Below, piece after piece: positions 3,849-27,396 of a stretch of DNA of 34,904 nucleotides. The notes below the pieces were generated by a model, which was not told the DNA's origin, did not search any database, and saw nothing but the letters and a program-made list of their open reading frames with translations. The translations under genes were made by a program, and so were the position numbers. Each line of letters starts with the position of its first letter. Position 1 is the first letter of the stretch. Source of the stretch: a virus; IMG/VR virus record IMGVR_UViG_3300030520_000076, positions 1 to 34,904 of that record; one strand, given 5' to 3'.

Positions 3849-4067
3849 CTACTTTGCTTCAGGTGGTGCGGCTCGAAACATGAATTGGTGAATGTTATCC
3901 GCGCAGCGCTTATAGCCGCGAGTGATAGATTTCCCAGTCTCATCGTCGCCCAAGCCCTCCTGTAGGGACATGAGAAACGATCCAAGAGCGACCCGCATCG
4001 TCATAGCTTCAGCGGTGCTCAGCGTAACGCCATTGACCGTAATCACCGGCTCGATTCCAAGGCTCAT
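3849..4067 (-). CDS. Small hypothetical protein
   Basis: A 72-residue protein. The ATG at 4067 is preceded by a GAGG ribosome site 7 bases upstream, and the leader from the predicted transcription start is about 30 bases. The sequence begins with a short strand-like part (IEPVITVNGVTLSTAEA) followed by two helices. It is the first gene of the leftward unit below the divergent promoter. No family was recognised. Confidence 0.6.
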   Translation of the reverse strand: MSLGIEPVITVNGVTLSTAEAMTMRVALGSFLMSLQEGLGDDETGKSITRGYKRCADNIHQFMFRAAPPEAK

Positions 4068-8205: not shown

Positions 8206-8891
8206 TTCGCGACGCACGCCGCCACAATTTCTTTACTGTCGACAACGCAATTCTTGATAAGGGCCTGAGCCGCTATGCGCTCGTGACCTACCTAGTGCTT
8301 TGCCGCTACGCCAACAACGAAACCCAGACCTGCAAAGTTCTCCTTGCAACGATAGCCGACAAGGCTGGATGCGGTCGCACAAACGTCTCTCTGGCGATCA
8401 AGGAATTGGAGACCTTGGGGCTCATATCGGTGAACCGGGCGAAGGATTCAAGCTGCGTTTTCACCCTTCTCTCGGTGGATACCCCCATTCAAAATACGAA
8501 TGCCCCCCATTCAAACGGCGAACTACCCCCATTCGCAGTTTGTACGCATAACAATACTTCTAATAACAAAACTGAAACCAAGGAAATCCTCTCGGCTGTC
8601 GCCGAGGTATTCCGCTACTACAAAGACAGGATCGGGAAGAGCGGTCTCTACACCCTAACTCCAGATCGTCAAAAGAAAGGCGTTGCGCGGCTGCGGGAGT
8701 GCCTCAAGAAAACCGGCAATCTCCCAGGGGCGGTCGAAATGATGCGAATTTGCGTAGATGCCATCGAGGGCAGCGACTTCCACATGGCTCGCGGCAAGTA
8801 TCAAGGTCAGCGCCCGTACAACGATTGGGAGAACCAACTCTTTGGGTCTGAAAGCAAAATGGAGAAGTGGCTAGAGGAGGCCCAGCGATGA
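8199..8891 (+). CDS. Replication initiator / replisome organiser with N-terminal winged helix
   Basis: A 230-residue protein. Residues ~10-90 form a helix-turn-helix of the phage replication-initiator type: FFTVDNAILDKGLSRYALVTYLVLCRYAN, then CKVLLATIADKAGCGRTNVSLAIKELETLGLI. After a variable linker rich in N, T and P, the C-terminal domain (about residues 125-230) carries FRYYKDRIGK..LYTLTPDRQKKGVARL and YNDWENQLFGSE, as in DnaD/replisome-organiser-like phage proteins that bind the origin and load the helicase. The primase-helicase gene lies 1 kb downstream. It overlaps both neighbours (ATGCTAA at the start, ATGA at the end). Confidence 0.75.
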   Translation: MLIRDARRHNFFTVDNAILDKGLSRYALVTYLVLCRYANNETQTCKVLLATIADKAGCGRTNVSLAIKELETLGLISVNRAKDSSCVFTLLSVDTPIQNTNAPHSNGELPPFAVCTHNNTSNNKTETKEILSAVAEVFRYYKDRIGKSGLYTLTPDRQKKGVARLRECLKKTGNLPGAVEMMRICVDAIEGSDFHMARGKYQGQRPYNDWENQLFGSESKMEKWLEEAQR

Positions 8892-15217: not shown

Positions 15218-15257
15218 GGCCGCCCTTTCGCGGCGGCCTGCCCGGTTACCAGCCGGG
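15218..15257. other. Two adjacent hairpins between leftward genes; second has a TTACCAG loop on the plus strand
   Basis: Hairpin 1: GGCCGCC (15218-15224) with GGCGGCC (15232-15238). Hairpin 2: CCCGG (15241-15245), loop TTACCAG, CCGGG (15253-15257). The second is followed on the plus strand by GGGGAGGAAAACC and an ATG at 15281. The same seven-base loop occurs in the minus-strand hairpin before the gene ending at 16739. Confidence 0.6.
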
Positions 15258-15280
15258 ACGATTCCAAGGGGAGGAAAACC

Positions 15281-15460
15281 ATGAAAACGACCCTTGGGAA
15301 TGTGTTCAAATTCTGCCGGGAGATGGCGCTTAGCGTTACGTCCCGGACCTTGGCCCTAGTTGTTCAATTGCGAGCTACCACTGTTCGCATCGAAGACTTG
15401 CTTGAACTTCGTTCTATCGATGTATACAGCGTTCAGATCCGCGAAGCCATGATGGATTAG
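15281..15460 (+). CDS. Candidate small gene (59 residues) antisense to the leftward operon
   Basis: An ATG-to-TAG frame encoding MKTTLGNVFKFCREMALSVT and on to IREAMMD, mostly amphipathic helix. It has the best-formed ribosome site in the neighbourhood, and the 13 bases GAGGAAAACCATG are identical to those at the minus-strand start at 16739. Both are also preceded by a hairpin with the loop TTACCAG. Against it: the last 105 bases are antisense to the 3' end of the gene at 15356-16168, which reads as a sound protein, and no plus-strand promoter was found. Confidence 0.4.
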   Translation: MKTTLGNVFKFCREMALSVTSRTLALVVQLRATTVRIEDLLELRSIDVYSVQIREAMMD

Positions 15461-16168
15461 CTCCTTGGAGTCCACGCGGATAGCGCCTGCGGCCACGTAG
15501 GGCTTAGAAAGTGGTCCTCCTGCGAGAGCATCATCGGCTAGTTGGTCGATGAATACTGCAAGCTCCTTCGACGGCTCAAGCCCGAGGCGCTTCATTGCTT
15601 CGGTTTCGGCAGGCGTAGGGAGGGTGGCTTTGCGCTCGGCGATAATCTCGTCGCTGCGCTTATCGAGAGCCTTCTGGTATTCGGGGTTGTCGAGGCAGTA
15701 GACGGCTAACCGCTTACCGCGTTCAATCCCTTCATCTACAGTCAAGCCGAAGCCTTTTGTGACAGCTTCAAGCTCATCGTTATCGTCCGTATGCGCGACT
15801 GCTACCATCTGAGAATCTTGTTCCAAGTTCGGAACAAAGACATTCTCTTTGGTGCTTAGTTCGGGATCTTTCACGCCCCTGGTCCGCTGCAATTCGCAGT
15901 AGTCGCAATCGCATCCGGGAGTGATTGGACCTTCCGGGATCGTGATACCCTTTTCTGCGGAGAGTTCGGCAACCCGCGCATCGTAGGCTACGCGATATTC
16001 GGGGTTCTGAAGCAGGTATTTGAGCAAGGTGACGGCCAGGCCAATACTTTTGGCTTGATCGATGCCGCGCTCTTTGCTGTACGCGGCTAGTGCTTCGCCG
16101 CCGTCATCTTTGTACGCAAGGACGCTAAGTTGCGCGTCAAGTTCTACGTCCCGTTCAAATTTAGGCAT
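15356..16168 (-). CDS. Hypothetical protein with an internal domain duplication
   Basis: A 270-residue acidic helical protein with AGAGGAAACACAA before the ATG. Residues ~12-76 and ~118-181 are diverged copies of one helical unit: each ends with a long helix containing NPEY followed by a basic-acidic helix (LLQNPEYRVAYDARVAEL and CLDNPEYQKALDKRSDEI). The linker contains GCDCDYC (C86, C88, C91), a possible metal site. The C-terminal ~60 residues are a separate piece (VYIDRTKFKQVFDANSG). No family was recognised. It is the largest gene of the leftward operon. Confidence 0.68.
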   Translation of the reverse strand: MPKFERDVELDAQLSVLAYKDDGGEALAAYSKERGIDQAKSIGLAVTLLKYLLQNPEYRVAYDARVAELSAEKGITIPEGPITPGCDCDYCELQRTRGVKDPELSTKENVFVPNLEQDSQMVAVAHTDDNDELEAVTKGFGLTVDEGIERGKRLAVYCLDNPEYQKALDKRSDEIIAERKATLPTPAETEAMKRLGLEPSKELAVFIDQLADDALAGGPLSKPYVAAGAIRVDSKELIHHGFADLNAVYIDRTKFKQVFDANSGSSQLNN

Positions 16169-16188
16169 TTGTGTTTCCTCTTTTCTTG

Positions 16189-16254
16189 TGGGTTATGGAT
16201 GGCATGAGAGTAGGGCTCGGGGATAACCCATACTGCGCTTTGGTCTCATGCCAT
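16189..16254 (-). other. Interlocked inverted repeats with pseudoknot topology in a gene leader
   Basis: In the 120-base gap before the gene ending at 16168, two perfect inverted repeats interlock: TGGGTTAT (16189-16196) with ATAACCCA (16223-16230), and ATGGCATGAGA (16199-16209) with TCTCATGCCAT (16244-16254). The order A-B-A'-B' is that of a pseudoknot, or of two mutually exclusive hairpins. The AGAGGA ribosome site follows about 10 bases after the last arm on the minus strand. Confidence 0.65.
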
Positions 16255-16289
16255 CACGGTTAGTTGGATGCATCTGTAAGACAAACGAT

Positions 16290-16739
16290 TCAGAGCGTGT
16301 CTACCTTGACGATTGCGCTCGGTGGGATGATACCGGGATACCAAAATGCTTCCATTGAAGGCGCGTCTTCGTCATCGTTTAGCTTTGTGGCGATGTTTTG
16401 CGGCACGTTTACTTCGATAATTACAGGCTTTGCCCCGGCAATTGCTTTTGGTCCATGCGGAGACTTGTAATAAACAAGTTGCGTGCGTCCAACAAAGATG
16501 TCCTTTGGGTATTCTGCGACTAGATGTCCAGGTTGGGCAGTCAAGTAGCTAGCTCTTAGTCTGGCGAATTTTTCGGCAGTATTGCGTGACGTGGTGAGAT
16601 AAACGGCATGCTCGGTTTTTGGTATAACCCCATAGTCCTCGGTATTGATGACTTTGAAGTTTTTGCTTGGTTGGGGTTTGAGTCCATGAGCTTCGATGGA
16701 CGGTAGATAGGTGCTGGCAGTGCCGTGATACATAATCAT
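16290..16739 (-). CDS. ADP-ribosyltransferase-like protein (KptA/DarT-like fold)
   Basis: A 149-residue protein. The ATG at 16739 is chosen because AGAGGAAAACC immediately precedes it; the frame runs on upstream to 16919 over a structured gap and another small gene. MYHGTASTYLPSIEAHGLKP (H5-G6-T7) is the first motif of ART/RNA-phosphotransferase-type NAD-binding folds. HAVYLTTSRNTAEKFAR (about 44-60) is the second, and the end FWYPGIIPPSAIVKV matches the closing strand of these families. Phage ARTs modify host polymerase, ribosomes or translation factors. The third catalytic motif is not clear, with D-D-E-D-A near residue 125 a candidate. Its place in a host-takeover-like operon fits. Confidence 0.7.
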   Translation of the reverse strand: MIMYHGTASTYLPSIEAHGLKPQPSKNFKVINTEDYGVIPKTEHAVYLTTSRNTAEKFARLRASYLTAQPGHLVAEYPKDIFVGRTQLVYYKSPHGPKAIAGAKPVIIEVNVPQNIATKLNDDEDAPSMEAFWYPGIIPPSAIVKVDTL

Positions 16740-16755
16740 GGTTTTCCTCTTTTCT

Positions 16756-16835
16756 CGACGCTGGTAACGTCGGTCAGATTGTCCAGCCTTGGACTCGTCA
16801 GCGGCGACATTATCGCCGTACGGGCCGAAGCCCGT
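16756..16835 (-). other. Four consecutive hairpins in the gap before the ART-like gene
   Basis: Arms: CGACG 16756-16760 with 16768-16772 (minus-strand loop TTACCAG); GTCCA 16781-16785 with 16790-16794; CGGCGA 16802-16807 with 16813-16818; ACGGGC 16820-16825 with 16830-16835. The last has a UUCG tetraloop closed by C-G on the minus-strand RNA, an especially stable form. None has a T-run, so terminator function is unlikely. Confidence 0.65.
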
Positions 16836-16845
16836 TTCGTCCTGG

Positions 16846-16974
16846 TTAGAAGGGAAGGGTGAATCCACCAGCTTGGAAGTTCTGGTAGACGGATGAGAGA
16901 ACGGCAAAACCGAGCGCAACGATGAGCACGGTTACGAATATCTTGCTGGCATTGTCTTCGATGAAGTTCTTCAT
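16846..16974 (-). CDS. Small single-helix membrane protein (42 residues)
   Basis: A 42-residue gene with AAGGAGAATCAA before the ATG, a near-perfect ribosome site. MKNFIEDNASKIFVTVLIVA is the N-terminus; residues ~12-28 form one transmembrane helix, then a short polar tail (SSVYQNFQAGGFTLPF). It lies 12 bases after the gene at 16987-17295. No family known; similar tiny membrane peptides occur in phage early regions. Confidence 0.68.
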   Translation of the reverse strand: MKNFIEDNASKIFVTVLIVALGFAVLSSVYQNFQAGGFTLPF

Positions 16975-16986
16975 TTGATTCTCCTT

Positions 16987-17295
16987 TTAGTAGTCAAGCG
17001 AGTTGAAGTAGGGGACTTCTAGAACATCCCCGCGAAGCTTGAGGACGCTATGGGCGACTGCGAACGCGTTCAACGGCCTACCGTATCCATCTGAGGCATA
17101 CGCGATGCGTTGACCGTCGTACGATTCGGTGAATTCAACGTGGTTAGGGTCAGTATCGATCAGTTGGGCGATATGATCGAGTGACAGTTGGGGCTGGGGC
17201 TCGCCGTGTGCGATTCCCGGCGTGCGGGTGAGGTAATCACCCGCTTCTATGGGTTCGGCTTCACCTGAGGCCTTGTAGAGCGTAGCAATGGGCAT
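16987..17295 (-). CDS. Hypothetical protein
   Basis: A 102-residue protein with ATG at 17295, three bases after the preceding stop, so coupled. Strand-rich N-terminus (IATLYKASGEAEPIEAGDYLTRTPG) followed by helix (SLDHIAQLIDTDP) and strands (HVEFTESYDGQRIAYASDGYGRPL). The RNA near its start can form a 7-bp hairpin (GCGGGTG 17224-17230 with CACCCGC 17238-17244). Not recognised. Confidence 0.62.
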   Translation of the reverse strand: MPIATLYKASGEAEPIEAGDYLTRTPGIAHGEPQPQLSLDHIAQLIDTDPNHVEFTESYDGQRIAYASDGYGRPLNAFAVAHSVLKLRGDVLEVPYFNSLDY

Positions 17296-17298
17296 GGC

Positions 17299-17538
17299 TC
17301 ACTCTCCCGCTATTGCCGCTAGACTTGAGTAGCCGTGCAAGGCTACGTCAAAAGCCAGGATGGTGATTAGGGCATCAGCTAGATCCCTTTGCCCCGTTTC
17401 TTCGAGGGCGTATGCTGCGCCTGCGAATAAGGCAATAGCTTCGCGGTCTCGTTTTATGCCCCTCAAGCCCAAAGCGGAGCAACGGTTTATAGCTCGTTTG
17501 GCGATTGAAGATGCGATTGTTTTGCGTGTTTGCTTCAT
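17299..17538 (-). CDS. Small hypothetical helical protein
   Basis: A 79-residue protein with AAGGAGAAACC before the ATG. The first 30 residues are very basic (KQTRKTIASSIAKRAINRCSALGLRGIKRDR) and the rest is an alanine-rich helical pair (EAIALFAGAAYALEETGQRDLADALITILAFDVAL). Could be nucleic-acid-binding. Not recognised. Confidence 0.62.
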   Translation of the reverse strand: MKQTRKTIASSIAKRAINRCSALGLRGIKRDREAIALFAGAAYALEETGQRDLADALITILAFDVALHGYSSLAAIAGE

Positions 17539-17571
17539 AGGTTTCTCCTTTTCTAACGTTGGTCTCGTCAG

Positions 17572-17605
17572 TGTGAGCTTGACTCACAGAGCCCATTGAA
17601 GGGCT
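17572..17605 (-). other. Two hairpins before the gene ending at 17538
   Basis: Arms TGTGAG (17572-17577) with CTCACA (17583-17588), and AGCCC (17590-17594) with GGGCT (17601-17605). They fill the gap between the 31-residue gene and the gene at 17299-17538, upstream of its ribosome site. Minus-strand loops are TCAAG and TTCAAT, without the TACC core. Confidence 0.6.
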
Positions 17606-17611
17606 TTCGAC

Positions 17612-17707
17612 CTAGTTTGTGAATGCGAGATACGCGGTAAACGCTCCGAGTATCAGTATGAGAACAAGCATGTTATGGTTGTAAGCCTTATGGTTGTAGT
17701 GCCTCAC
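17612..17707 (-). CDS. Very small single-helix membrane protein (31 residues), GTG start
   Basis: A 31-residue frame whose GTG overlaps the preceding stop (GTGA), with AGAGG about 7 bases upstream. After a polar, histidine-rich start (RHYNHKAYNHN) it has one hydrophobic helix (MLVLILILGAFTAYLAF) and ends TN. Tight coupling and the clean membrane helix favour a real peptide; a start at the internal ATG (19 residues) is an alternative. Confidence 0.5.
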   Translation of the reverse strand: MRHYNHKAYNHNMLVLILILGAFTAYLAFTN

Positions 17708-17928
17708 TTAGATACCTCTACGATGGATTCGCTAACCTCTGCGACCGTTTCGGTATTCTCGCGAATCGCGAATGCGATGCGGGAGAGGATGCCACCAGCG
17801 GCTAATTCCGTACCCCAATGGGTGAGATATAGGTGAAAGAGGTATTCAGTAGCTTGGATAATGGCGATAGCCAAGATGATGATGAGCGCGTGTAGTACGA
17901 CGGAGCGTAGCTTTTTAGACTTGAGCAT
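17704..17928 (-). CDS. Small membrane protein
   Basis: A 74-residue protein from the ATG at 17928, with GGGGGCG just upstream; it overlaps the end of the preceding gene by 14 bases. The frame is open to an ATG at 17973, which would need a 59-base overlap. One clear transmembrane helix (about residues 9-27, SVVLHALIIILAIAIIQAT) follows a basic start, then a helical tail (IRENTETVAEVSESIVEVSK). Not recognised. Confidence 0.62.
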   Translation of the reverse strand: MLKSKKLRSVVLHALIIILAIAIIQATEYLFHLYLTHWGTELAAGGILSRIAFAIRENTETVAEVSESIVEVSK

Positions 17929-18181
17929 TTTCGCCCCCAGTCTCATACTTTGTCCAGTCGTCATTGTCGCCATTGAGCGGGAAGGTGGAAGCTGCGGCTT
18001 TGTCTAGTTGCTCTTGTTCAAAGTCGATGGCCTGTTGCACCTCATCGCGGGATGCACCGAGTAAAATCGCGATATCGGTAATCGTGTTGAAGTGATGGAA
18101 GTGAAGGTTATGCGCTACTTTCGATTCGATAAAGTCAAGGCTCATGGTTTGTCCTCTTTCCGATGGTTGGTTGCGAATCAT
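17915..18181 (-). CDS. Small helix-turn-helix-like protein with two possible starts
   Basis: An 88-residue protein from the ATG at 18181, preceded by GGAGG seven bases upstream, itself directly after a TACC-loop hairpin. A second in-frame ATG at 18145 has AGAGGACAAACC upstream and would give 76 residues starting MSLDFIESKV. The core NTITDIAILLGASRDEVQQAIDFEQEQLDKA looks like a helix-turn-helix. The end is polar (DNDDWTKYETGGENAQV). Either or both starts may be used. Confidence 0.6.
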   Translation of the reverse strand: MIRNQPSERGQTMSLDFIESKVAHNLHFHHFNTITDIAILLGASRDEVQQAIDFEQEQLDKAAASTFPLNGDNDDWTKYETGGENAQV

Positions 18182-18193
18182 TTTGCTTCCTCC

Positions 18194-18232
18194 AGATGCC
18201 GGTAGCATCTCTTAGTCCAAGACTGGACTAAG
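18194..18232 (-). other. Two hairpins before the HTH-like gene; first has a TACCG loop
   Basis: AGATGC (18194-18199) with GCATCT (18205-18210), minus-strand loop TACCG, ending one base before GGAGGAAGCAAA and the ATG at 18181. Next to it CTTAGTCC (18211-18218) with GGACTAAG (18225-18232), an 8-bp stem with a 6-base loop. Confidence 0.7.
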
Positions 18233-18245
18233 GGTTGATACCGTT

Positions 18246-18386
18246 TCATGGCTCAAAATATCGAAACGTTACTCTATGGGCTATTTCCCGCCCCCATTCG
18301 TAAGCCATTTCGTATTCTCCGCAATTGGTGGTGAACCCGAGCCTAAATTCCTTTACGCCTAGCCAAAAAGCTTTTATTCTGTTCAT
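18246..18386 (-). CDS. Small hypothetical protein (46 residues), first gene of the leftward operon
   Basis: A 46-residue gene with AGGAGGAAACG directly before the ATG, the strongest ribosome site of the region. The sequence runs MNRIKAFWLGVKEFRLGFTT, a CGEYEMAYEWGREIAHR helix and VTFRYFEP. Not recognised; a small soluble basic protein. A hairpin with loop ATACCC abuts its ribosome site. About 135 bases of leader separate it from the promoter. Confidence 0.65.
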   Translation of the reverse strand: MNRIKAFWLGVKEFRLGFTTNCGEYEMAYEWGREIAHRVTFRYFEP

Positions 18387-18397
18387 CGTTTCCTCCT

Positions 18398-18456
18398 GAA
18401 GCGGGTATGCTTCTCACCGCACACTCTGACTAGTGCGGTAGGCTGCATATCAGCCT
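18398..18456 (-). other. Three hairpins in the operon leader; first has an ATACCC loop
   Basis: GAAGC (18398-18402) with GCTTC (18409-18413), minus-strand loop ATACCC, immediately upstream of AGGAGG; ACCGCAC (18416-18422) with GTGCGGT (18433-18439); AGGCTG (18440-18445) with CAGCCT (18451-18456). All lie in the untranslated leader of the leftward operon. Confidence 0.68.
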
Positions 18457-18527
18457 TTCAGTCTTGCCTAGGTTGTCAATGATCCGGTCTTGCTAGCTAC
18501 TTGAGCTATCGCGTTTGCGACTTCCCA

Positions 18528-20212: not shown

Positions 20213-21922
20213 ATGGCTCGCAAGGTAACTGCACCGACAATCGACCTCCTCGACGGATATAAGCCCGAAGACCCCAAATCCTTGGAGGAGGTTGAGTCTC
20301 GTGTCGTCGAGTCGATGCAGCTTTACTACCTCACCATGAACCCCAAGCAAGAGGAGTTCATCCGGGTAAAGAACAACCGGGGGCGAACTCCGAAGACCCG
20401 CCTCTTTGAAGCTGGCAACCAGGGAGGCAAGACCACGATTGGTGTCGCCGAAGATATCGCGCACGCGATGGGCTTTCGTCCCTGGTTGGACAAGTCCGAC
20501 CCGGACTACAAAATCTCGGTCAAGGTTCCCAACCAGGGGATCGTCGGTTGCGAGGTCGCCGGTCAAGTATTGAAGGCCAACATCGAACCCCTGTTCCTGA
20601 AGTTCATCCCCAAGTATTGCGATCCGAAGATCGACCGCTACTCGGATGGGTCGATCAAATCCCTAACCCTGACCTACGATTACACCGGAGCCTACTGTGG
20701 ATCGACCATCCACTTCCGGTCGTATGTTCAGCCAGCCGATAGCTATGAGGGCATCGTGGTTGACTGGTTACACTGGGACGAGCCCCCACCCCGGCCTATA
20801 CTCAATGCAGCAGAGCGCGGGAAGATGAGCACGAACGCACCTTCCTGGCTTACCATGACCCCACTCAAGGAGCCTTACATTTATGACATCTTTACGCTCA
20901 AAGCTTTCAACAACGGTGGCGACGATCAAGAGATCGCTGTCTTTCGTGGCGCGGTCTGGGAGAATTGCCAAGACTGGTGTCGCTCGTGCAACATTACGAT
21001 TCCTGAAAACGACCCTGAAATCCTTGAGCCTGGAGTTTTACGTCCCGTCAACAAGTGCCCTGGCTGCGGAAAAACGCTTGGCTTTATGCCCCGAGCCGGT
21101 ATCGACAACTACCTCAAGAAAATTACCGACCCCGACGAAAGGGAAGCCCGCGAGGAAGGCAAGTGGAAGCACCTCTCCGGCCTCGTCTACAAAGAACTTG
21201 ACCGCGAAAAGCACCTATACCAAGATTTCGAAATCCCCAAAGACTGGATGCGCATCGAAGTCGTCGATCCACACGACGCACGTCCGACCCGATGGATCTT
21301 TGGTGCGGTCTCCCCAGAAGAGATCCAGATAAATGGTAAGACCGTCAACCGGATCTACTGGTACACCTACCTGCTCGCGTCCGGCAATATCGACTCCATC
21401 GCTAAGCAGGTCAAGGTACGACGTGCGGAGTACGGCTACCGCGAACCTGCGATGGTTATCATCGACGCGAAGTTCGGAGGGGCACACAAGCCCAGTCATG
21501 GCGAGGAACAGACATCCTGGGAAGAGGAGCTAGACAAATGCGGGATAAAACATATCATCCTATCGCATTCAGCGAGTGGGGACATCGCTTTAGGACACAA
21601 GATGGTGAAGGAGTATCTACAGCCACACTACTCAACCGTGAAGGACAAGTCGTTTCCCGGAATGTTGTTCGCGGTCAATGGCTGCAAGGGGGAGCGTGGT
21701 CCGATACACGACATGTTCAACTACCAGTGGAAGCTGGGAACCGACAAGCCTGAGGAGCAGTACAAGGACGCCTGTGACTGCATCCGCTATGCTGCGCTTG
21801 AGCAGCCAGTCTACAAAGCTCCTGAGCCTGAGATCAACCAAGAACTAGCCCGCCTGCTGCTCGCGAATCAAAGGGAAGAGACAGGCGGGGCGCTCTATCA
21901 CGGAATGAAGATGAGGTACTGA
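20213..21922 (+). CDS. terL: Terminase large subunit
   Basis: A 569-residue DNA-packaging motor. The ATPase has Walker A GNQGGKTT (68-75) and Walker B IVVDWLHWDE (181-190), then WLTMTPL as the coupling motif. The RNase H-like nuclease has VVDPHD (D352), MVIIDAKFGG (D418) and a final KDACDCIRYA (D519/D522), which cut concatemeric DNA. Between the two lies a cysteine-rich insert (C252, C256, C259, C282, C285), probably a zinc ribbon, as seen in some podovirus terminases. It works with the small subunit (probably 18748) and the portal at 23085. Confidence 0.95.
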   Translation: MARKVTAPTIDLLDGYKPEDPKSLEEVESRVVESMQLYYLTMNPKQEEFIRVKNNRGRTPKTRLFEAGNQGGKTTIGVAEDIAHAMGFRPWLDKSDPDYKISVKVPNQGIVGCEVAGQVLKANIEPLFLKFIPKYCDPKIDRYSDGSIKSLTLTYDYTGAYCGSTIHFRSYVQPADSYEGIVVDWLHWDEPPPRPILNAAERGKMSTNAPSWLTMTPLKEPYIYDIFTLKAFNNGGDDQEIAVFRGAVWENCQDWCRSCNITIPENDPEILEPGVLRPVNKCPGCGKTLGFMPRAGIDNYLKKITDPDEREAREEGKWKHLSGLVYKELDREKHLYQDFEIPKDWMRIEVVDPHDARPTRWIFGAVSPEEIQINGKTVNRIYWYTYLLASGNIDSIAKQVKVRRAEYGYREPAMVIIDAKFGGAHKPSHGEEQTSWEEELDKCGIKHIILSHSASGDIALGHKMVKEYLQPHYSTVKDKSFPGMLFAVNGCKGERGPIHDMFNYQWKLGTDKPEEQYKDACDCIRYAALEQPVYKAPEPEINQELARLLLANQREETGGALYHGMKMRY

Positions 21923-26352: not shown

Positions 26353-27396
26353 ATGGCTGACGCAAACGTACTCGGGTACCCAACCCTGATCGACATCATC
26401 AACAACTATGGGTCTGCTGACGCTCGCGCTCAGTACATCCAACCGGCTCGAATCCTCGACCGGAAGTGCCCCCTCATTCGGATGCTTCCGATGGTGGCGA
26501 GCAACAACGTCCTATCCAACATCGCTACTCGCACTGACTCTTTGCCGATCCCCGGAACGCGTCGGTGGAATGAGGGTGTGTTGCAGACGGCTTCCCACAA
26601 CACTCCGATCAACGATCCGATTGCTCTCTTTGAGGACTACTCGGAAGTTGATAAGGAGCTTTGCCGGATTCAGAACAACCCGACCGCATGGCGCACCGAT
26701 CAGGACATGAACCATATCGAAGGTTTCCGGCAGACGCTGGAGAACATGTCTTGGTACGGTAACATCGGAACTAACCCTGGAGCATTCAATGGCCTCGCCA
26801 CTCGGTTCAACAACCTCGAATCGTATCCGAACGGCGACACCTCCTGGAACCCGAACGTGCTGAACGGCGGTTCTACCTCCGGCTCGGTTACGAGCATGTG
26901 GTTGATCGAGTTCGGCCCCGGCAAGGTGCATGGGATCTATCCCCCGAACACCCCTGGCGGGTTCAACATCGAAGACCTCGGCGAAGTGACGAAGGAGAAC
27001 GCTCAGTCGCTCGGAGCCGTCTCCCAGAATTACTTGCATCAGGTCTATCGCACCCACTTCACATGGTTCATGGGTCTTCAGGTGCCTGACGAACGCTGCG
27101 TGCAGCGTGTCGCCAACATCAACCCCGCCATCCTCAGCAGCAATGACTTCGACGAAAACATCCTCATCGAAGCGATCAACTACCTGCCGGACGAAGGGGC
27201 GAATCCTGGGACCGCGATCTTTGTGAATCGCGCTCTCAAGACCCAGATTGACATCCGGGCGGTGAGTCAGAAGATCAACGCCTACACGATGTTCAAGCCC
27301 GGTATGGATGTCTTTGGCGGTCGCGTGACGACCTTCCAGGGAATTCCGATTTACGTTGCAGAGAAGTTGCTCAACACCGAGACGGTCATCAGCTAA
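26353..27396 (+). CDS. Major capsid protein (HK97-type, BPP-1-like)
   Basis: A 347-residue protein with AAGGGAG before the ATG. The N-terminal part (ILDRKCPLIRMLPMVASNNVLSNIATRTDSLPIPGTRRWNEGVL) and the C-terminal part (QKINAYTMFKPGMDVFGGRVTTFQGIPIYVAEKLL) match the major head proteins of BPP-1-like podoviruses. It forms the shell, with the cement protein at 27413. Position between scaffold and cement genes supports the call. Confidence 0.88.
   Translation: MADANVLGYPTLIDIINNYGSADARAQYIQPARILDRKCPLIRMLPMVASNNVLSNIATRTDSLPIPGTRRWNEGVLQTASHNTPINDPIALFEDYSEVDKELCRIQNNPTAWRTDQDMNHIEGFRQTLENMSWYGNIGTNPGAFNGLATRFNNLESYPNGDTSWNPNVLNGGSTSGSVTSMWLIEFGPGKVHGIYPPNTPGGFNIEDLGEVTKENAQSLGAVSQNYLHQVYRTHFTWFMGLQVPDERCVQRVANINPAILSSNDFDENILIEAINYLPDEGANPGTAIFVNRALKTQIDIRAVSQKINAYTMFKPGMDVFGGRVTTFQGIPIYVAEKLLNTETVIS

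Follow-up and report, generated by a model that had tools for sequence, protein, structure and literature searches.

The stretch analyzed here, referred to as the window, is a complete virus record of 34,904 bases (IMGVR_UViG_3300030520_000076) and derives from a tailed phage. Its minus-strand operon, as well as one plus-strand start, carries short hairpins in front of ribosome binding sites (Table 1). In a first-pass annotation, four of these hairpins were described as having unrelated stems but a shared TACC loop core, and were proposed to form a conserved RNA element that binds a regulatory protein or serves as a processing site. All four are present in the sequence as written, including the identical seven-base loop on opposite strands (TTACCAG at +15246 and −16767). 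A fifth ACC hairpin adjacent to a Shine-Dalgarno sequence, CTGACG-AGACCAA-CGTTAG (17571-17553, minus strand), was absent from that list. The processing-site alternative turned out to be nearer the mark, as two gaps of the operon hold complete type II hammerhead ribozymes, which the annotation had not noticed.

A megablast search with the window found no phage in INPHARED matching at the DNA level. In IMG/VR, 31 contigs encode a terminase at least 60% identical to that of the window. Contigs L001 and L025 match the window in full over the terminase, and L001 appears to belong to the same species. L003, whose terminase is 88% identical, is the only informative relative that spans the same minus-strand operon. 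Relatives of the operon proteins were confined in IMG/VR to the window's own species and L003, and none were found in GTDB genomes.

The sharing of loops exceeds chance. For this comparison, hairpins ending at most 20 nt 5′ of a Shine-Dalgarno sequence were collected, for every start in the window that was taken as a gene, and dinucleotide shuffles served as the control. Twelve hairpins were seen versus 3.4 expected. TACC was common to four loops, and any 4-mer shared by four loops occurred in 0 of 2000 shuffles. ACC loops were present in five of six Shine-Dalgarno-adjacent hairpins of the window and in four of five of L003 (p = 6e-5 versus a background of 5.9%, the share of ACC loops among all hairpins of these contigs), and two more ACC-loop hairpins occur in L003 gaps that have no equivalent in the window. 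The share fell to background among the Shine-Dalgarno-adjacent hairpins of more distant terminase relatives (3/56) and of ribozyme-bearing contigs (43/639). Therefore, the motif is real but lineage-confined. The earlier description of changing stems around a kept loop holds within this lineage, where the stem at 15241-15257 changes from CCCGG/CCGGG to CCGAG/CTCGG in L003 without any change in the TTACCAG loop, but it does not extend to a general phage element. The L003 counterpart of the 16756-16772 hairpin reads CGACGC-CUACCA-GCGUCG.

Both ribozymes display the type II permutation, in which stems I and III are closed by loops and stem II is open. The core is complete in each copy, with CUGANGA, GAA, the A15.1-U16.1 pair and C or A as H17 before stem I. 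The first base of the ribozyme at 17561-17612 is also the final G of the upstream TAG stop codon, and the one at 16791-16842 is situated 3 nt 3′ of its upstream stop codon. In L003, the ortholog of the former (7181-7130) occupies the same gap with altered stems, and in the ortholog of the latter (6382-6331) stems I and III differ but the core is preserved. A strict type II descriptor gave five matches in 578 kb, namely the window pair, the L003 pair and an L001 duplicate, all in the gaps of this lineage, while the type I and III descriptors found no match in the window or its terminase relatives. Furthermore, a covariance model (R2) built from 43 hammerheads of unrelated contigs, with the window and L003 left out, detected the two ribozymes of the window and their two L003 orthologs with E values from 1e-16 to 6e-20. 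The scores were 59.6 bits (E 5e-17) for 17561-17612 and 63.4 bits (E 3e-18) for 16791-16842, and the next best was 8.9 bits. Loop I of the ribozymes also fits a UNANG consensus that the descriptor did not demand. Two gaps of the minus-strand operon contain type II hammerheads with a perfect core, for which self-cleavage is predicted from the sequence.

Table 1. Positions of the RNA elements and genes considered in this work
Feature	Position	Strand	L003 counterpart	Details
Hairpin GAAGC-AUACCC-GCUUC (first-pass annotation)	18398-18413	−		Directly 5′ of AGGAGG and start 18386
Hairpin AGAUGC-UACCG-GCAUCU (first-pass annotation)	18194-18210	−	8290 region, loop and core stem identical	Directly 5′ of UGGAGG
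Hairpin CGACG-UUACCAG-CGUCG (first-pass annotation)	16756-16772	−		Between ribozyme and Shine-Dalgarno sequence of 149-aa gene (start 16739)
Hairpin B CCCGG-UUACCAG-CCGGG (first-pass annotation)	15241-15257	+
Type II (open stem II) hammerhead GGUC-GAA-AGCCC(UUCAAU)GGGCU-C^-UGUGAG(UCAAG)CUCACA-CUGACGA-GACC	17561-17612	−		Predicted cleavage (^) between 17589 and 17588
Type II hammerhead GGAC-GAA-ACGGGC(UUCG)GCCCGU-A^-CGGCGA(UAAUG)UCGCCG-CUGACGA-GUCC	16791-16842	−		Predicted cleavage (^) between 16819 and 16818
Core-tail hairpin CUGACG-AGACCAA-CGUUAG	17553-17571	−		Stem II strand GACC exposed in loop; adjoins AAAAGGAG and start 17538
Alternative hairpin GUCC-AAGGCU-GGAC	16781-16794	−		Stem II strand pairs with tail; from sequence and minimum free energy (MFE) fold of 3′ product
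Hammerhead-like scaffold GAA-AGGCUG(AUAUG)CAGCCU-A-CCGCAC(...)GUGCGG	18414-18459	−		Then UGAGAAG in place of CUGANGA; adjoins hairpin 18413-18398
Class 2 unit, 5′ part	18211-18242	−		GGUA (18242-18239), then hairpin CUUAGUCCA-GUCU-UGGACUAAG (18232-18211)
Conserved leader element of 270-aa gene	16198-16255	−	5725-5650 (−)	Long stem GAUGGCAUGAGA/UCUCAUGCCAUC
Conserved structured region	15218-15301	+	about 3960-4060 (+)	Hairpins A 15218-15238, B 15241-15257, C 15261-15301
Hairpin C AUUCCAAGGG-(Shine-Dalgarno and AUG)-CCCUUGGGAAU	15261-15301	+		Shine-Dalgarno sequence and AUG in 20-nt loop
8-bp perfect hairpin GCGGGTGA-TTACC-TCACCCGC	17244-17224	−		Inside 102-aa gene
Terminase large subunit	20213-21922
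GP7-type major capsid protein	26353-27396

Ribozymes of this type recur in the same setting across IMG/VR. A scan with two DNA patterns fixing stem II (GGUC/GACC or GGAC/GUCC), followed by the type II descriptor, confirmed at least 297 distinct type II hammerheads on at least 202 loci, and none in mononucleotide-shuffled sequence. The following counts refer to the 297 listed hammerheads. In 87% of cases (random 26%), the ribozyme lies −6 to 25 nt from the end of an open reading frame (ORF) of 30 codons or more, and the stop-to-ribozyme distance peaks at −1, 0 and 2 nt. A Shine-Dalgarno sequence and a start follow within 90 nt in 260 of the 297, compared with 36% of random positions, the median distance from ribozyme to start being 21 nt. 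The complete order of stop codon, ribozyme, and Shine-Dalgarno sequence with start codon at most 90 nt after was found for 227 hammerheads, and up to nine were present on one contig among the matches listed. All three stems covary in 47 aligned hammerheads of 52 nt, with 99.6% of cells paired, and the descriptor does not impose the G-UNANG-C consensus of loop I. A hairpin occurred in only 12 of 260 tails, by which a general hairpin-in-tail rule was rejected; the extra UUACCAG hairpin at 16772-16756 is therefore not typical.

In a subset of ribozymes, the tail just 3′ of stem II is complementary to the catalytic strand, as in CUGAU-GAGACC-AUCAG and CUGAC-GAGACC-GUCAG. Such core-tail matches of at least 5 bp were found in 44 of the 297, compared with about 6 in shuffled tails, and TCAG is 7-fold commoner in the tail than other arrangements of the same letters. 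Covariation with the tail partner is seen at N7, the sole free base in the core strand: 45 of 57 pairs are Watson-Crick versus 27.8 expected (0/5000 shuffles), and 14 of 21 versus 8.4 expected (9/5000 shuffles) when similar ribozymes are collapsed. Complementarity between loop I and the 3′ tail, as in a pseudoknot, was not enriched over shuffles in the same hammerheads. The fifth hairpin of the window (17553-17571) is a pairing of this kind and is part of the MFE fold of both the full uncleaved leader and the predicted 3′ product, so it may represent a product-release step or an off state. At the second ribozyme, the L003 version of the 16781-16794 hairpin is GUCC-AAGGAAU-GGAC. The UACC (18210) and AUACCC (18413) hairpins occupy the same position as the core-tail hairpin, after a hairpin and before the Shine-Dalgarno sequence, and their loops match the NACC stem II strand. 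For some of the hairpins, the ACC loop corresponds to the stem II strand, which pairing of the catalytic CUGAN with the 3′ tail leaves exposed. We did not find core-tail pairing described in the literature searched.

The remaining gaps hold other elements in the same position. The scaffold at 18414-18459 follows the hammerhead plan: GAA leads into a stem III of 6 bp, and a single base separates this from a stem I of equal length. Model R1 does not recognize it. Since only four such scaffolds were present in 1.14 Mb of strand scanned, two of them being true hammerheads, it is read as a probable decayed ribozyme whose core-tail hairpin (18413-18398) persists. The next element, which we term a class 2 unit, consists of GGUA, a hairpin and the GAUGC-UACC-GGCAUC hairpin (18210-18194). 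GGUA is complementary to the UACC loop, and the MFE fold pairs CGGUA with UACCG. L003 contains three clear class 2 units before genes and a looser fourth one (alignment A7), and a scan of IMG/VR with the class 2 pattern recovered only this lineage, the other matches being without the structure. Comparison of the two sequences suggests that two genes of L003 are missing from the window owing to a deletion between two class 2 units, which appears to have left a fused ORF start at 18181. The ATG at this position, previously taken as the start of a gene, looks like a relic of a deleted gene fused to the next one, and the homologous start is 18145. At the putative deletion site, window 18210-18145 (−) faces L003 8330-7584 (−), and the sequence between 18181 and 18145 looks like the junction of two such units. 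The leader of the 270-aa gene (16198-16255) has an internal loop with CAAAGYGCAG and CCUAC conserved in the window and L003, and is possibly a riboswitch, ribozyme or protein site. Both the class 2 unit and this leader are non-hammerhead elements with no Rfam match in the ribozymes' place between stop codon and Shine-Dalgarno sequence. That they are a new self-cleaving or otherwise processed RNA, interchangeable with hammerheads in this lineage, is very doubtful; if true, the elements at 18242-18194 and 16255-16198 would constitute a new kind of processed RNA.

Combined, these results lead us to interpret the hairpins as the parts lying closest to the ribosome site within RNA-processing modules that occupy the gaps of the minus-strand phage operon, with a probability of about 0.68. 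Two gaps carry complete type II hammerheads, a third an apparently decayed one, and others lineage-specific hairpin modules in the same position. Beyond the sequence, structure and conservation shown here, we infer that the polycistronic RNA is cut just 3′ of the stop codon, between stems III and I. The upstream mRNA would then end in the stem III hairpin with a 2′,3′-cyclic phosphate, while the downstream mRNA would start with the stem I hairpin and a 5′-OH; since stems I and III of a type II ribozyme are both closed hairpins, each cut product would have a hairpin at its new end. Both new ends would be expected to resist exonucleases and the 5′-phosphate-dependent RNase E. The freed catalytic strand could subsequently pair with the tail (CUGACG/CGUUAG, 17571-17553), presenting GACC in the loop beside an exposed Shine-Dalgarno sequence. 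The products would be monocistronic messages with protected ends, a 5′-OH and an exposed ribosome site. A cut flanked by a closed hairpin on either side is peculiar to the type II permutation, whereas in types I and III one product end is single-stranded; type II hence seems suited to mRNA punctuation. Such an arrangement shows how some phages may divide one long RNA into separate hairpin-ended messages. The recurrent stop-ribozyme-Shine-Dalgarno order, together with these closed hairpins, gives type II hammerheads a concrete and testable role in punctuating phage polycistronic RNA, and the core-tail pairing, with its covariation at N7, would contribute a step of refolding or of switching off.

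Several observations weigh against this interpretation. The at least 297 hammerheads come from two patterns that fix stem II, and part of the stem covariation in the alignment (A4) follows from selection of the sequences with a pairing descriptor. Neither of the two UUACCAG hairpins (16772-16756 and 15241-15257) fits the core-tail scheme, so that their shared loop falls outside this explanation, and the class 2 unit at 18242-18194 is without a hammerhead core. The 17553-17571 hairpin also forms in the MFE fold of the RNA before cleavage and might thus inhibit the reaction instead of arising from it. Finally, no Rfam model exceeded the gathering score in scans of the complete window, the operon, L003 or two individual gaps; the window ribozymes stay below it for the hammerhead models (that of type II being RF02276), with 11.6 bits for Hammerhead_3 in a 141-nt scan. 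The gathering score is, however, a library threshold and not a defining structural feature of a ribozyme.

The module at 16842-16740 can be compared with RiboJ-type synthetic insulators, in which a hammerhead from a satellite-virus ribozyme and a hairpin are placed before the ribosome site. The order of ribozyme, short hairpin and Shine-Dalgarno sequence is the same, but here the arrangement is natural, the ribozyme is of type II and the hairpin is a different one.

The proposal that a phage or host RNA-binding protein controls translation of the operon by using the UACC-loop hairpins as operators, with the ribozymes as independent neighbors, is unlikely. Although it would explain why the UUACCAG loop (15246-15252) is unchanged in L003 where its stem has covaried, why this loop occurs at two unrelated window sites and why ACC loops cluster beside Shine-Dalgarno sites far above background in both genomes, the enrichment does not reach more distant relatives or other phages, and the loops differ (UACCG, AUACCC, UUACCAG, AACCA and AUACCAU). 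The operon proteins match no RNA-binding family, though most of them match no family at all. In addition, the hairpins lie beside and not over the Shine-Dalgarno sequence, therefore occlusion is not obvious. Phage coat-protein and N-peptide operators are short hairpins with a conserved loop near the start; in contrast, no conserved stem bulge and no cognate protein were identified here, and the hairpins are lineage-restricted. The observation made in the first-pass annotation is confirmed, and its interpretation is partly supported.

We also consider it improbable that these are plain insulating or stabilizing hairpins near ribosome binding sites, their common loop reflecting descent of a few copies (class 2 paralogs) and coincidence. 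In its favor, the L003 class 2 units share sequence outside the loop too and are therefore copies, the fusion of two such units in the window resembles a deletion between them, and the enrichment is lineage-specific. However, neither stems nor flanks are related among the hairpins at 16772-16756, 15241-15257 and 18413-18398, and the shuffles never yielded a 4-mer common to four loops. That the hammerheads are relics of mobile or circular RNA with no part in operon expression is highly improbable: one probable decayed copy is present (18414-18459) and published work (PMC3088659, PMC6155905) offers no proof of what prokaryotic hammerheads do, but the L003 orthologs keep the core while the neighboring proteins are only 54-60% identical, and the exact stop-ribozyme-Shine-Dalgarno order recurs in 227 of the 297.

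The hammerheads of the window are of a known kind, while the ACC-loop hairpins are lineage-specific. Perreault et al. (2011, PMC3088659) reported type II hammerheads that flank single genes, several per prophage; these cleaved in vitro, and one did so in E. coli as well. A review describes the role of bacterial and phage hammerheads as an open question and notes their persistent phage link (PMC6155905). Compared with the bacterial and prophage ribozymes (PMC3088659), those described here have the same core, the same permutation and multiple copies between phage genes, but stem II is a regular 4 bp and Rfam gives no match. A pseudoknot between loop I and the 3′ tail is common, though not universal, among the former (PMC3088659); here it is not enriched, and in a subset the tail pairs with the catalytic strand instead. 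HHphage of the haloviruses HF1/HF2 is likewise start-proximal, situated 13 nt upstream of a phage start codon (PMC3088659). It is a core variant from an archaeal virus, whereas the core is canonical here.

In the plus-strand region (15218-15301), the stems of hairpins A, B and C show compensating changes between the window and L003, while the loop of B and the 20-nt loop of C are identical. The ORF behind it, annotated with its start at 15281, may not be a gene: it encodes 59 aa in the window, only 15 codons precede the stop of its L003 counterpart, and every codon difference is non-synonymous. A search of genomes with the start motif at 15281 matched ordinary ribosome sites of unrelated genes.

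A further TACC-bearing loop had been pointed out at 17224-17244, inside the gene at 16987-17295. This hairpin exists, but its stem is not kept in L003. Another hairpin family with AACC loops (GCAACC-AACC-GGTTGC and GTAAGC-AACC-GCTTAC) precedes CCGCCAGGAG sites in contigs L195, L223 and L299 (starts 3549, 7743 and 9793), which also carry hammerheads.

The 149-aa protein behind the second ribozyme (16739-16290, minus strand) starts with YHGTASTYLPSI...VYLTTS and recalls ADP-ribosyltransferase and RNA 2′-phosphotransferase folds. It gave only a weak PHROG match (phrog_5470, E 0.078), and its structure prediction was poor, with a predicted local distance difference test (pLDDT) score of 43. A promoter-like TTGACT-17-TACATT at window 18556-18528 (−) lies over repeated TTGTCTTACA (18551 and 18539), and the 17-mer TTGTCTTACAGATGCAT at window 16284 (−) recurs at the L003 operon promoter at 8534 (−). 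These sites are probably a repressor operator and a second promoter.

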